This document shows positions 506 through 11,985 of a stretch of DNA of 20,230 nt, one piece after another (within the stretch, counting starts at the first letter, position 1; each line of letters begins with the position of its first letter). The translations under genes were made by a program, and so were the position numbers. The notes beneath the pieces are model-generated. The model searched no databases and was not told the DNA's origin. It saw only the letters and a program-made list of their open reading frames with translations. The stretch spans positions 1-20,230 of IMG/VR virus record IMGVR_UViG_3300032092_000326, one strand, 5' to 3'. This stretch comes from a virus.

Positions 506-2758
506 CTACCCAGCCGCCTTGTATCGCTTGACCGCCGTGCCCTTGAACCTGTGCGCGCCTTCGGTCGCTGTCAGCATGCCGGCGGCGACCATCTGATCAA
601 GGCATTTCTGGATGTCGGTCTTTTTGTATTTCCGCATGCGGTTGACCAGCACGCCGAACGTCTCGCCCTCGTCGCCAGCCGTCAGGTTCATGATGCGGGC
701 TTTCATGGCCATCAGCGGATTGTCTTTGGCGCGCTCGTTGGACGTGACGAGATCCATCTTCTCGCGGATGTCGCGGCGCACGAGCGCATAGGCCCACAGG
801 ACGTGCTCTTCAGTGCGGATGCCGCCGGGCACGGCGAGGATCAGGGAGACCTTCGCCACCTGCTCATAGGCGCGCATGGCGAGCGCCTCCAGACCTGTCG
901 AGCTCTTGGCGTCCTCTGCCATCTGCTCAAACGCATCTGAGACCCTATCAAGAAGCTCTGCGCCACCGGGCGTTGTGGGGACAGGTATGCGGTCGTCGTA
1001 ATACTCGACGCGGCCAGAGCCTGTCATGTCGAAGCTGCCGGCCGCGAACAAATCTTCCAGCGATTGCTTGAGACCGGGAGGCATAGGCCGTGGCTTGAAC
1101 CCTTTCTTGCGGGGCGGGGTCGTGTCGCGCTCGGTGAATAGCAAGCTGCGCCCGATGAACCCGTTGGTTGCGTTGTAGAAATCAACCAGCTCGTCAAAGG
1201 TCTCAGGCGTGGTGAAGCCACAAAGCGACAGGAAAGGCCGATCGAGGCCGAAGTCGAGCGTTTCCATCGAGCGGCGCACGGCACCGATGCGGGACAGGAT
1301 AGCAGGGCTGGGGTTCTCTTGCTTTTCCAGCTGCTGCAGCTCGCCCTTGAGGGCTTTGCGGATTTCTTTCTTGAGATCGCCGGTGAGCAGCATGAAACCA
1401 TTGGCCTTGGAGTAGGCTGACATGAGCGCGCCGATCACGCCATCGAGGTAAGACGCGCCGCCCTTGAGCTGGGCGTTCTTGACCTTCTTCAGGAAGATTC
1501 CGATCTCGTCGATCAGGAACATGGCCGCCTGATGATCGACCAGATTGCGGATGATCTCCTGCTCAGACTTGATCGAGCCGTGCACCGCCTGTTGGATGCG
1601 GGCCGCCTTCAGGACGGCCGCGACGGCTTGCTGGATCGGCTCCTTGCCTGTGCCAGAGCCCGCCACGCAGAAGGTGAACAGGTTTGTCGTGACGCCGTTC
1701 AGATCGTCGGTGTAGCGCAGGCCGACAATGTTGCCGATGGCGGTGAGCGCGCCAGCGACGGCGAGGTGTTCACGGGGGCGGTAGGATTGATCTTCGATCC
1801 ATGCCGCAACCTCGCCGACAAAACCCGGCGGCCGCTTTAGGTTGATGTGGGAAATGTCGAGGGGATCGGTCGGCAGGATCTCGAAGTCAGAATCAAATGT
1901 GACCGGCTGCTGCCAGCCTGCGGCCTCGGCGTAGTGGATCAAGGTGCCGAGCGTGACAGGGTTCGCGCTTTTCCCGAACGAATGCCAGCGCTTGGTGAGC
2001 ATGTCGCGGCCGGGATATTTCGTGCCACGGTTGGACCATGTGTCCCAGACGTCAAACGCCGTGCCGCCTGATGCGTGATGCAGGCCCATGCCGCACCGGA
2101 TCCACGTCTCATGGTCCGAATCAGGATCGACGTGGGAGATCATCTCGGCGAGATCAGCGTGCGACACGTCCATTGTCGTGCCATTGCCGAGATCAGCGCG
2201 ATGGCGCTCGGGCTTGCGCAGGAGATCAATAAGTGACTGCGGCGCAGGCTCAATGTCGTATGGCGAGCCGTAGGCGACTTCGTAGCGATTGCCCGATGCA
2301 TGCATGGAACCGGGGCCGACAACATAGCCGGATGATTTGAAATCAATGCCGGGATAGTCGGAGTGATGCTGCATCAGGGCGAGGCCTTCGGCGAGCTGAA
2401 AATAGTAATGCCGCGACCCGCCACCGGACCCAGTGTTGACGACGAGTCCTGCTTTTTCAACAAGCGGGAAATCGTTCTTGAGCCGTTCGTATGATTGCAC
2501 GCCGCCATTGCGGGCATCGACATCGATCACAAGCAGCCCGCGAATCAGGATGCCATAGCCGGTGTCGAGCTGACCCGACAGCTCCTTGGTTTCGACCTGC
2601 TCGTCGTCCCACTCGGGCGTATGCTGCCAGTTCGACACGAGCGGGTGCTTGTAGGCTGCTTTGCAGTCCTTGTTTCCGCATGCGCAATTGCCGCGCTTGT
2701 CCACACCATACAGGCCGAAGAAACGAAATCCGGCCTCCCGAAACTCGCGATAAAGCAT
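506..2758 (-). CDS. Primase-polymerase / DUF3987-type helicase (phage replication protein)
   Basis: A 750-residue multidomain replication protein. Numbering below counts from the GTG at 2761, so subtract one for the ATG at 2758. Residues 26-39 hold a Cys/His cluster (C26, C28, C33, H39, ending KHP) typical of N-terminal prim-pol domains. The archaeo-eukaryotic primase core follows, with catalytic IDVD (D80, D82), the second motif GSRHYYF (H118) and IDFKSSGYVVGPGS from about 139. A PriCT-2-like segment spans about 203-262 (ETWIRCGMGLHHASGG, then FDVWDTWS). The rest is a P-loop ATPase with Walker A GSGTGKE (368-374) and Walker B FLIDE (415-419). The family primes DNA synthesis and unwinds the fork. 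The ATG at 2758 overlaps the upstream stop as TGATG, with GGGGG at 2765-2769 as ribosome site. It lies opposite in strand to the recombination genes. Confidence 0.88.
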   Translation of the reverse strand: MLYREFREAGFRFFGLYGVDKRGNCACGNKDCKAAYKHPLVSNWQHTPEWDDEQVETKELSGQLDTGYGILIRGLLVIDVDARNGGVQSYERLKNDFPLVEKAGLVVNTGSGGGSRHYYFQLAEGLALMQHHSDYPGIDFKSSGYVVGPGSMHASGNRYEVAYGSPYDIEPAPQSLIDLLRKPERHRADLGNGTTMDVSHADLAEMISHVDPDSDHETWIRCGMGLHHASGGTAFDVWDTWSNRGTKYPGRDMLTKRWHSFGKSANPVTLGTLIHYAEAAGWQQPVTFDSDFEILPTDPLDISHINLKRPPGFVGEVAAWIEDQSYRPREHLAVAGALTAIGNIVGLRYTDDLNGVTTNLFTFCVAGSGTGKEPIQQAVAAVLKAARIQQAVHGSIKSEQEIIRNLVDHQAAMFLIDEIGIFLKKVKNAQLKGGASYLDGVIGALMSAYSKANGFMLLTGDLKKEIRKALKGELQQLEKQENPSPAILSRIGAVRRSMETLDFGLDRPFLSLCGFTTPETFDELVDFYNATNGFIGRSLLFTERDTTPPRKKGFKPRPMPPGLKQSLEDLFAAGSFDMTGSGRVEYYDDRIPVPTTPGGAELLDRVSDAFEQMAEDAKSSTGLEALAMRAYEQVAKVSLILAVPGGIRTEEHVLWAYALVRRDIREKMDLVTSNERAKDNPLMAMKARIMNLTAGDEGETFGVLVNRMRKYKKTDIQKCLDQMVAAGMLTATEGAHRFKGTAVKRYKAAG

Positions 2759-2967: not shown

Positions 2968-3058
2968 TTTTCAAACCTACTAGGGGCAACATTTAGGATG
3001 TTGACAGTGCCACATGATTCGGCATACCGTCAACCCGTTAAGAGAAGGAGAAATGCCA
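2968..3058. promoter_or_regulatory. Divergent control region with promoter and nested operators
   Basis: This is the only divergent gap in the window. A consensus -35 box, TTGACA, lies at 3001-3006 on the plus strand. The -10 near 3023-3028 (CATACC) is weak, matching 3 of 6 bases. A perfect inverted repeat CAACAT-N5-ATGTTG (2987-3003) overlaps the -35 box by three bases. A second, slightly asymmetric nested dyad, TTGAC..TGCC...GGCA..GTCAA, spans 3001-3033. Reading the minus strand, TTGACG at 3033-3028 could be a facing -35 box, but no good -10 follows it. A strong ribosome site, AAGGAG, at 3045-3050 serves the rightward operon. Confidence 0.6.
2987..3003. promoter_or_regulatory. Candidate repressor operator (17-bp perfect dyad)
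   Basis: CAACAT, a five-base spacer and ATGTTG form a perfect 17-bp dyad, a length common for dimeric phage repressors. It overlaps the first three bases of the TTGACA -35 box, so bound protein would block the rightward promoter. The adjacent XRE regulator gene is the obvious candidate binder. Binding itself is inferred. Confidence 0.5.
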
Positions 3059-3814
3059 ATGAGCATTCTTTCAACGGTCAGCAAACCCGCTGACCGCCCT
3101 GTGATCGTCACGATCTGTGGCGATAGCGGCTTGGGTAAAACCACCCTTGCCTGCACGTTCCCCCAGCCCATCGTCATCCGTGCCGAAGACGGCCTGCAGG
3201 CAATTCCTGCTGATCGTCGCCCGGATGCGTTCCCAGTTCTGACTGGGCCAGATGCGTTGTGGGAGCAATTGAAAGCCCTCATCCACGAAGAGCATGAGTA
3301 CAAGACCTTGATCGTTGATTCGGTCACGGCACTGGAGCGCATGTTCTCTACCTATGTGGTTGAGACTGACCCGAAGAAGCCCAAGGGCATCCAGCAAGCT
3401 CTCGGGGGATACGGCGCGGGCCGCGATGCAATCGCAGCCATGCATGCTCGTCTGCGTAAGGCTGCGGGAATTCTCGCAGACAAGCGTGGCATGAACACTG
3501 TGTTCGTGGCCCACGCCGACACCAGCCGCATCGAGCCGCCGGATGACGACGCCTACATGCGTTACACGCTTCGCCTTCATGAGAAGAGCATGCCAGCCTA
3601 CGTCGATGACGTAGACGTCGTGGGCTTCCTGAAGCTGGAGACCTTCACGACAGGTGAAGGCGAGCGCAAGAAAGCAATTTCTGATGGCACGCGCGTGTTG
3701 ATCACGCATGCGACCGCAGCGAACGTCAGCAAAAACCGTTTCGGCATCACTGAACCGATCAATGTCGAAATCGGCGTCAATCCCCTTACTGCTTACATTG
3801 GAGCTTTGAAATGA
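3059..3814 (+). CDS. RecA-fold AAA ATPase, Sak4-like single-strand annealing protein
   Basis: A 251-residue P-loop ATPase. Walker A GDSGLGKT is at residues 21-28 and Walker B TLIVDSVTAL at about 83-92, with D87 the magnesium-binding acid. The short N-terminal lead-in and overall size fit the AAA_24/Sak4 group of phage recombinases, remote RecA relatives that anneal single strands with help from a cognate SSB. The next gene is just such an SSB-like protein, joined by an ATGA overlap, and a YqaJ exonuclease lies further down the operon, which supports the recombination role. I chose the ATG at 3059 because AAGGAG (3045-3050) lies 8 nt upstream. The ATGs at 3053 and 3014 are too close to it or ahead of it. 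Other phage P-loop NTPases remain possible. Confidence 0.8.
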   Translation: MSILSTVSKPADRPVIVTICGDSGLGKTTLACTFPQPIVIRAEDGLQAIPADRRPDAFPVLTGPDALWEQLKALIHEEHEYKTLIVDSVTALERMFSTYVVETDPKKPKGIQQALGGYGAGRDAIAAMHARLRKAAGILADKRGMNTVFVAHADTSRIEPPDDDAYMRYTLRLHEKSMPAYVDDVDVVGFLKLETFTTGEGERKKAISDGTRVLITHATAANVSKNRFGITEPINVEIGVNPLTAYIGALK

Positions 3815-4323
3815 GTGACTTCTGGAATTTTGAACAATCCACGACTGGCGAATTCGAAATGGGCGGCGGTGATATCCAGCCGATCCCTGCTGATACGTCA
3901 TGCCTCGCGTCTGTTGATGAAGCGAAGTGGGATGAGAAAGACGGCGCGCGTTATATTTCGTTGCGCTGGAATATTCTGCAGCCTACGGAGTACAAGAACC
4001 GCAAGGTGTACCAAAAGCTGTGGGTTGCTGATGCAGATCCTTTGGCAAAGGACGCAGAAAAGAAGCGTGAAAAAGCAAAGCGTATGCTGGCTGCAATTGA
4101 TCTGAATGCTGGCGGCAAGCTTCGCGCAGCTGGTGTTGAGCCGACTGATGAATCTCTTGGCAAAGCGTTGGTAGACAAGCCAATGGTGATCAAGGTCATG
4201 CAGTGGAAGGATAGAGAAACCAATATGCCGAAGGGCAATTGGATCGGCGCTGTGTCTGCCAAAAAAGGCGCGGCGCCTGCACCAGTTGCCAAGCCAGCCG
4301 TGACGGAGGACGCGCCGTTTTAA
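3811..4323 (+). CDS. DUF669-like single-stranded DNA-binding protein
   Basis: A 170-residue protein. The body, with SLRWNILQPTEYKNRKVYQKLWV at about residues 50-72 and VIKVMQW further on, fits the DUF669 family found beside phage annealing proteins and exonucleases. A Lys/Glu-rich helix (about 78-95) interrupts the core. Residues about 148-164 are a Pro/Ala-rich linker, and the chain ends TEDAPF. That acidic, Pro-Phe terminus resembles the C-terminal tip by which bacterial SSBs recruit partner proteins (DDDIPF in E. coli). I infer that it coats single strands and loads the preceding Sak4-like protein. It starts with an ATGA overlap of that gene. The family call is by motif resemblance only. 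Confidence 0.72.
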   Translation: MSDFWNFEQSTTGEFEMGGGDIQPIPADTSCLASVDEAKWDEKDGARYISLRWNILQPTEYKNRKVYQKLWVADADPLAKDAEKKREKAKRMLAAIDLNAGGKLRAAGVEPTDESLGKALVDKPMVIKVMQWKDRETNMPKGNWIGAVSAKKGAAPAPVAKPAVTEDAPF

Positions 4324-11102: not shown

Positions 11103-11290
11103 TTCATCAACTCTCGCCGCCGATCCCAGTGGACACGCCAAAAGGCAAGGCGCTTTGCATAGCGTGGATTGACTACGGCCCGGAGCATCATTTGATCTGG
11201 GTCTGCTTTCAGAACGAAACAAGAGAGTGCTGGTGCTGGCCGAACCCGCAAATCAGAGCCCAATCAAATCCGAGCATGGAGCGCACATGA
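11099..11290 (+). CDS. Small conserved-type phage protein
   Basis: A 63-residue protein. PVDTPKGKALCIAWIDYGPEHHLIWVCF followed by ECWCWPNPQIRAQSNPSMER follows a pattern I recall from many phage hypotheticals: P-x-x-TPKGKG, then IDYG-x-EH, then NP-x-IR-x-x-N. These are thought to be short beta-rich domains, with no known activity. It has ATGA junctions at both ends. Confidence in the gene is moderate; function is unknown. Confidence 0.58.
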   Translation: MIHQLSPPIPVDTPKGKALCIAWIDYGPEHHLIWVCFQNETRECWCWPNPQIRAQSNPSMERT

Positions 11291-11985
11291 TCCACTTCAT
11301 ATGGCTTACGCAGCCCGGCAGCCGGGCGTTCAGTTTCATCAACATGCTGGCGGTTCGGGCCGCGCATAAGTTCTATCCAGACGAGATCGTCATGTGGACG
11401 AACGATGCGCCGAAGAACAATCCGAACTGGGAATGGTACAGATTTGAAACCCGCCATGTCGATCTGCCAGACAATGACTGGCCGGTCCAGTACAAGGCGG
11501 ACCTCCTGCGGCTACAAATCATGCACGAGCACGGCGGCATATATCTCGACACCGACAGTCTGCTGCTGCGTCCGCTGGACCCGCTGCTCGGGCCTGATTG
11601 CGTTCTGGCGCGTGAGAGTAGCGATTCCTATGCGATGTCGCCGATCATTGCGAAGCCGGGCGCCCAGTTCATCAAGACGTGGCTGGACAGGCTGCCGGGC
11701 GCTATTGGGCCGGTGTGGGCCAGCCATGCCGTGAACCTGCCTGTAGAGCTGCACAAGTACCACAAGTGCGACGTGCGCCCGCAGGAGGAGTTTTTCCCGT
11801 TTGACCTGCGGCACAATTATCTGTTCGACGACGGCCGCGCCGACGAGCATGCGGAGCGCATGGGCAATCCATACGCTCTGCACGTCTATGAGACCTACTG
11901 GGCCGGGTATCTGGAAGGCGTGAACGAGACCTACATGAAAACGCGCGACACCTTATTCGCGCGTCTCTTTAAGCATCTTGTTTAG
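11287..11985 (+). CDS. Glycosyltransferase with DXD motif (GT32-like)
   Basis: A 232-residue sugar transferase of the Gly_transf_sug / GT32 type. The N-terminal IHFIWL strand, KADLLRLQIMHEHGGIYLDTDSLLLRPLDPLL (DTD is the metal- and nucleotide-sugar-binding DXD motif) and a late HVYETYWAG segment fit the family. It has no membrane anchor, so it acts in the cytoplasm. The acceptor is unknown: modified phage DNA bases, host surface sugars or a virion protein are possible. The ATG at 11287 overlaps the preceding stop as ATGA. The in-frame ATG at 11227 is inside that gene. It is the last early gene, and its TAG overlaps the stop of the converging structural gene. Confidence 0.82.
   Translation: MIHFIWLTQPGSRAFSFINMLAVRAAHKFYPDEIVMWTNDAPKNNPNWEWYRFETRHVDLPDNDWPVQYKADLLRLQIMHEHGGIYLDTDSLLLRPLDPLLGPDCVLARESSDSYAMSPIIAKPGAQFIKTWLDRLPGAIGPVWASHAVNLPVELHKYHKCDVRPQEEFFPFDLRHNYLFDDGRADEHAERMGNPYALHVYETYWAGYLEGVNETYMKTRDTLFARLFKHLV

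Follow-up and report, generated by a model that had tools for sequence, protein, structure and literature searches.

The virus record considered here, called the window below, has 20,230 bp and is a 20-kb fragment of a phage. Within it, a 91-bp gap separates two divergent genes, one for a small XRE/Cro-type regulator of 69 aa (2967-2758, minus strand) and one for a Sak4-like (AAA_24) annealing ATPase (3059-3814, plus strand). These coordinates agree with the arrangement originally predicted, an XRE gene and a recombination operon facing away from each other. Relatives share the Sak4 start codon at 3059 (ATG) but not the ATG that precedes it by six bases. Sak4 is the first gene of the rightward operon, followed by genes for a phage single-strand DNA-binding protein (SSB; 3811-4323, plus strand; phrog_9002), a YqaJ/RecE-like exonuclease, and a helicase. 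The regulator is the first gene of the leftward operon, and downstream of it lies the gene for a Prim-Pol/PriCT-2/DUF3987 primase-helicase (506-2758, minus strand). Replication and recombination genes thus flank the gap on both sides. The regulator stop codon TGA (2760-2758) and the primase ATG (2758-2756) share one base (TGATG), and in many relatives the two codons overlap or lie a few bases apart. Such closeness fits translational coupling and supports the predicted close tie between regulator and primase-helicase.

The regulator consists of a helix-turn-helix (HTH) without a further domain. It matches the Cro/C1-type HTH profile HTH_26 at 23.2 bits, above the Pfam cut-off of 22, and scores slightly below the cut-off for HTH_3; by sequence, no relative was found in the Protein Data Bank at an E value of 0.1 or less. 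Its recognition helix is of the H-x-N type (HENTVRSI).

Two inverted repeats lie in the gap, both at the positions originally given for them. Dyad 1 (2987-3003) is a perfect CAACAT-TTAGG-ATGTTG, whose right arm covers the TTG of a TTGACA (3001-3006). Dyad 2 (3001-3033) pairs TTGAC (3001-3005) with GTCAA (3029-3033), with TGCC and GGCA inside. Dyad 1 alone is at chance level in a gap of 91 bp, as a perfect 6-bp arm with a loop of 3 to 10 turned up in 10.6% of dinucleotide shuffles of the gap (P about 0.11). Dyad 2, taken alone, is not beyond chance either (a perfect arm with a loop of 18 to 30 in 12.7% of gap shuffles; P about 0.13). It is the comparison with relatives that makes both dyads real.

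Relatives were collected from phage records and by six scans of IMG/VR, five with Sak4 queries and one with the XRE, giving 323 sequences in all. A usable Sak4 start was present in 296, which reduced to 177 distinct upstream regions; 173 of these were scored, in 103 clusters at 80% core identity. Beside Sak4, 143 of the 177 regions have a small divergent XRE gene, and five more were added on inspection. The remaining regions mostly have other small DNA-binding proteins (P22_Cro or YdaS/CI-like by Pfam), and one (L270) has a possible ribbon-helix-helix protein in the regulator slot, with a score just under the cut-off. A BLAST search of phage records showed that Pseudoalteromonas phage H103 shares this module and that other phages have parts of it. 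Owing to the shortness of the arms, gapless scores of the best inverted repeat per upstream region did not stand out from those of shuffles, and position-based tests were used instead.

The search of relatives proposed for the two dyads had a divided outcome: dyad 2 is widely kept, dyad 1 in part only. For dyad 2, the comparison establishes conservation of the arms, with a CAA closing the element 31 to 36 bases from the left TTG; the right arm is found in 84 of 103 clusters, compared with 9 to 14 of 103 at control spacings. When the left arm is taken as a -35 box, a rightward -10 is found at a spacer of 16 to 18 (z = 12.6 versus shuffles). When the right arm is taken as the -35 of the opposite strand, a leftward -10 is found at spacers of 16 to 18, where it sits at 17 or 18 (z = 10.9 versus shuffles). 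A reading with a rightward promoter only, in which GTCAA is kept because rightward transcripts begin there, would account for the place of this arm immediately behind the rightward -10, where the start is inferred. However, such a reading would not call for leftward -10s at 17 to 18 bp, and the loci in which no divergent gene is seen (L004, L153, L164, and L255) have no right arm; we regard this reading as very improbable.

The leftward -10 signal differs with composition, with z = 10.6 in AT-rich elements and 3.3 in the GC-rich elements that include the clade of the window. Its core (A2 and T6) is present in 58% of elements at a spacer of 17, versus 7% at 16 and 8% at 19. AT-rich elements include near-consensus leftward promoters such as TTGACA-17-TAGTAT (L068), TTGATA-17-TATGAT (L067), and TTGATT-17-TATACT (L266/L267); TTGCAA-17-TACTAT (L142) is another example. 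In the GC-rich clade of the window, the leftward hexamer reads NAnTGT and overlaps the left arm. There, a T at +8 is found in 34 of 39 loci, and CACA at +10 on the plus strand in 24 of 39, versus 1 of 44 in other clades. This CACA coincides with the extended -10 (TGTGn) expected for a leftward promoter, and together the two positions would place a weak leftward hexamer with an extended -10 in this clade. The nested element is not repeated to any extent elsewhere in the phage genomes.

The arms of dyad 2 are thus best read, from sequence comparison, as parts of two sigma-70 promoters that run antiparallel and are fully nested in each other: each arm would be the -35 box of one strand, with the -10 of the other strand abutting or overlapping it. 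In the window, the rightward promoter would consist of TTGACA (3001-3006, plus strand) and the -10 candidate TACCGT (3025-3030, plus strand), separated by 18 bp; relatives have TATCGT, TAACGT, or TAGGGT in the latter position. The leftward promoter would consist of TTGACG (3028-3033, minus strand) and the -10 candidate CACTGT (3004-3009, minus strand), again with an 18-bp spacer, and the CACA described above would supply its TGTG extended -10 element (3011-3014, minus strand). From the positions of the boxes, we infer starts near 3037 on the plus strand and near 2997 on the minus strand. Both -10 candidates are weak in the window, the rightward one matching 3 of 6 consensus positions and the leftward one A2 and T6 only. 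When the region was scanned with a strict promoter consensus, no complete promoter came up, because the -10s are weak in this clade. The geometry nevertheless upholds, in the window and in relatives, the earlier proposal of overlapping divergent promoters beside the XRE gene.

The original prediction went further, taking dyad 2 as a second operator and the whole gap as a repressor-controlled genetic switch, with both dyads bound by the XRE protein. Both dyads are indeed real, the TTGAC...GTCAA pair nearly always adjoins a small regulator gene (74 of 82 clusters with one), and some arms change together, as in TTGCAA...TGCAAC (L073 and relatives) and TTTACA...TGTAAAC (L027). However, the co-change is loose; strict co-variation from arm to arm was rejected as evidence for an operator, since TTGACA is often paired with TTGCAAC. 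The arms keep the same sequence beside XRE proteins of many recognition-helix types and beside P22-Cro-like and YdaS-like regulators. In one locus without a regulator, where the primase is directly divergent, they are perfect (L146). They were also kept through an exchange of the regulator that sets apart two loci (L062/L063) whose Sak4 proteins are 99.6% and promoter elements 97% identical, while the regulators are 35% and the upstream 40 nt 40% identical; a second pair (L026/L031) has undergone the same kind of exchange. An operator, moreover, would not need leftward -10s at exactly 17 to 18 bp. We therefore consider two XRE operators quite improbable and do not favor the second-operator reading of dyad 2, whose arms are unchanged when the class of regulator is replaced. 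Since the nested promoter pair persists beside XRE, P22-Cro-like, and YdaS-like proteins, it is not the regulator's own site. A further locus without a regulator (L066), where the primase also diverges, has no right arm, which would not be expected if the element were purely a promoter; the two regulator-less loci thus speak one each way.

One can envision the nested promoters as a fixed early platform, beside which unrelated regulators (XRE, P22-Cro-like, YdaS-like, and possibly ribbon-helix-helix) would be swapped together with their own operators. We take this possibility seriously, although we stop a little short of favoring it. If true, the promoter would stay in place while repressor specificity changes. 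The primase seems to be exchangeable too: in L078, L083, L084, L085, and L086, the N-terminal part of the leftward primase differs (MIYELQE...), with Sak4 and the nested promoter kept. Two loci have an extra open reading frame between regulator and primase that reads as a putative homing-type endonuclease, GIY-YIG/T5orf172-like in L062 (near 620-1160) and HNH-like in L024 (near 1830-2560, minus strand); L062 is also a locus of regulator exchange. In phage phiHSIC (L005, 3590-3625), a divergent XRE gene is present and the TTGACA element lacks the right arm; its spacer contains a perfect dyad of another sequence, TAACT-AGC-AGTTA.

That leaves dyad 1, which spans the rightward -35 and the presumed start of the leftward transcript. 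In the clades of the window and of L070, 24 of 40 dereplicated loci have an ACA 10 to 12 bases ahead of TTGACA. Across all dereplicated loci, sorted by recognition helix, this ACA is present in 27 of 44 with an H-x-N regulator and in 0 of 39 with other helix types (P = 1e-10). The association also holds within two clade groups taken separately (P = 0.0025 and P = 0.0024), and the position of the ACA is kept while the flanks diverge below 80% identity. Loci with a SYPT-type helix have AAA...CTT where the ACA stands elsewhere. In the L062/L063 pair, this ACA core was exchanged along with the regulator, next to promoter cores that are 97% identical. We conclude that the small XRE protein probably has its operator in dyad 1.

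An alternative would keep the nested promoters but give the regulator no site among them: dyad 1 would be a chance or leader feature, and the XRE protein would act elsewhere or on something else. Besides being at chance level alone, the dyad lacks its ACA in 17 of the 44 H-x-N loci, and among relatives the spacing of the ACA-TGT half-sites varies from 5 to 7 bp, which is unusual for one dimer site. It also lies beside the regulator gene, and shared descent can mimic co-variation; because the two are neighbors, their joint exchange may reflect linkage or shared descent rather than matched recognition. Against this stand the absence of the ACA from every locus with another helix type, its association with the H-x-N helix inside each clade group, and its near-fixed position between diverged flanks. 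We hold this alternative to be unlikely, if far from negligible. The predicted 17-bp operator thus survives in a weaker form, through its association with the helix type, whereas the perfect dyad as such is at chance level and is broken in a locus whose XRE protein is 94% identical (L017), where ACA-N7-TGT alone is left. We also considered whether the conserved ACATT in dyad 1 might be the -10 of a second leftward promoter, and rejected this because the spacing is wrong and there is no A at position 2.

We think it fairly likely that the gap serves as an early promoter in both directions and has one XRE site through which both operons are shut off. The same 33 bp would hold two sigma-70-type promoters, one on each strand, and RNA polymerase would occupy them in one orientation at a time, because each -10 abuts or overlaps the -35 of the other strand; the operons would share one start platform. 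The leftward transcript would carry the XRE gene and the primase, and the rightward transcript Sak4, SSB, exonuclease, and helicase. We imagine that the XRE protein, once made, would bind dyad 1 and, because this covers the rightward -35 and the inferred leftward start, would repress both operons, its own gene included. The timing would be that of a Cro-like early shut-off.

The divergent transcription, the HTH regulator, and the dyads in the gap resemble an immunity region, and the word switch in the original prediction could be taken in the sense of lambda-type lysis-lysogeny control, with the XRE protein as prophage repressor. However, tyrosine integrase (PF00589) was found in 0 of 41 relatives of up to 73 kb, complete phage records included, and serine recombinase (PF00239) in 0 of 23. 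The S24 repressor (PF00717) was likewise found in 0 of 23, a test that covers CI repressors with an S24 domain and not those without it. The marks of a lambda-type switch, an integrase or recombinase and an S24 CI-type repressor opposing Cro, are thus not seen in these relatives. A scan of bacterial genome contigs gave one relative only, on a metagenome-assembled Planctomycetes contig that is uninformative as to host. The regulator, as noted, is a bare HTH between replication and recombination genes. As long relatives yielded neither an integrase nor a serine recombinase nor an S24 repressor, a switch in the lysogeny sense is hardly credible, and we favor an autorepressing, Cro-like early shut-off of both operons.

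Divergent promoters that overlap, and whose regulator is encoded by the transcript of one of them, are already known, and the gap is a variant of these. In the Bacillus conjugative plasmid pLS20, the -35 and -10 boxes of Pc are believed to double as the -10 and -35 boxes of Pr (PMC4207663). Candidate boxes lying over the same DNA in opposite order are also what we find here, in the sequence of the window and statistically in relatives. As proposed here, the gene for the pLS20 regulator, RcoLS20, is transcribed from one of the two promoters; its sites overlap and flank the core (PMC4207663). Binding over the core promoters is in our case a candidate feature, suggested by the co-variation of dyad 1 with helix type. 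pLS20 differs in that one of its promoters is strong and the other weak, and in its DNA looping and tetrameric regulator. In contrast to pLS20, the boxes here have a staggered arrangement in which the two -35s make up a 33-bp dyad, and this is conserved in a group of phages.

In Escherichia coli and other prokaryotes, bidirectional promoters are defined by starts 7 to 25 bp apart; both directions use a common -10, and the distance between the starts is mostly 18 bp (PMC12825309, PMC10268837). They resemble the present case in that the DNA is near-symmetrical and polymerase can bind either way, one way blocking the other (PMC12825309, PMC10268837). Here, by contrast, the -35s form the dyad, the predicted -10s (3025-3030 and 3009-3004) do not overlap, and the inferred starts are about 40 bp apart, outside the definition of Warman et al. 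Like the Cro proteins of P22 and lambda, the regulator is a small HTH protein encoded beside early operons, and a P22_Cro protein occupies the same slot in some relatives. Unlike those systems, there is one candidate operator, the regulator is of the XRE type (HTH_26), and neither an opposing prophage repressor nor an integrase was found in relatives. Phage H103 (NC_028819) has the same gene order, regulator and primase leftward and Sak4, SSB, exonuclease, and helicase rightward. It differs in its right arm (L003, 6536-6584), TGTCGAA, which stands 10 bp further out, about one helical turn, and in a regulator with another helix type.

Among open-licence papers, we found no description of this geometry conserved with exchange of the regulator across a large phage group, and its novelty is provisional. 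The group offers about a hundred diverged natural examples of one geometry in which two polymerases would compete for the same DNA. It lets one ask how phages balance two early operons through mutual exclusion and one repressor, and how repressor specificity swaps between related phages without rebuilding the promoter.

Two other genes of the window may be mentioned. Downstream in the early region, 10525-10860 matches the cell-cycle regulator GcrA at 43.1 bits, above the Pfam cut-off; GcrA is typical of Alphaproteobacteria, and the match hints at a host in that class. Between the early and structural genes, an open reading frame at 11227-11985 resembles a sugar transferase with a DxD motif (HGGIYLDTDSLLL).
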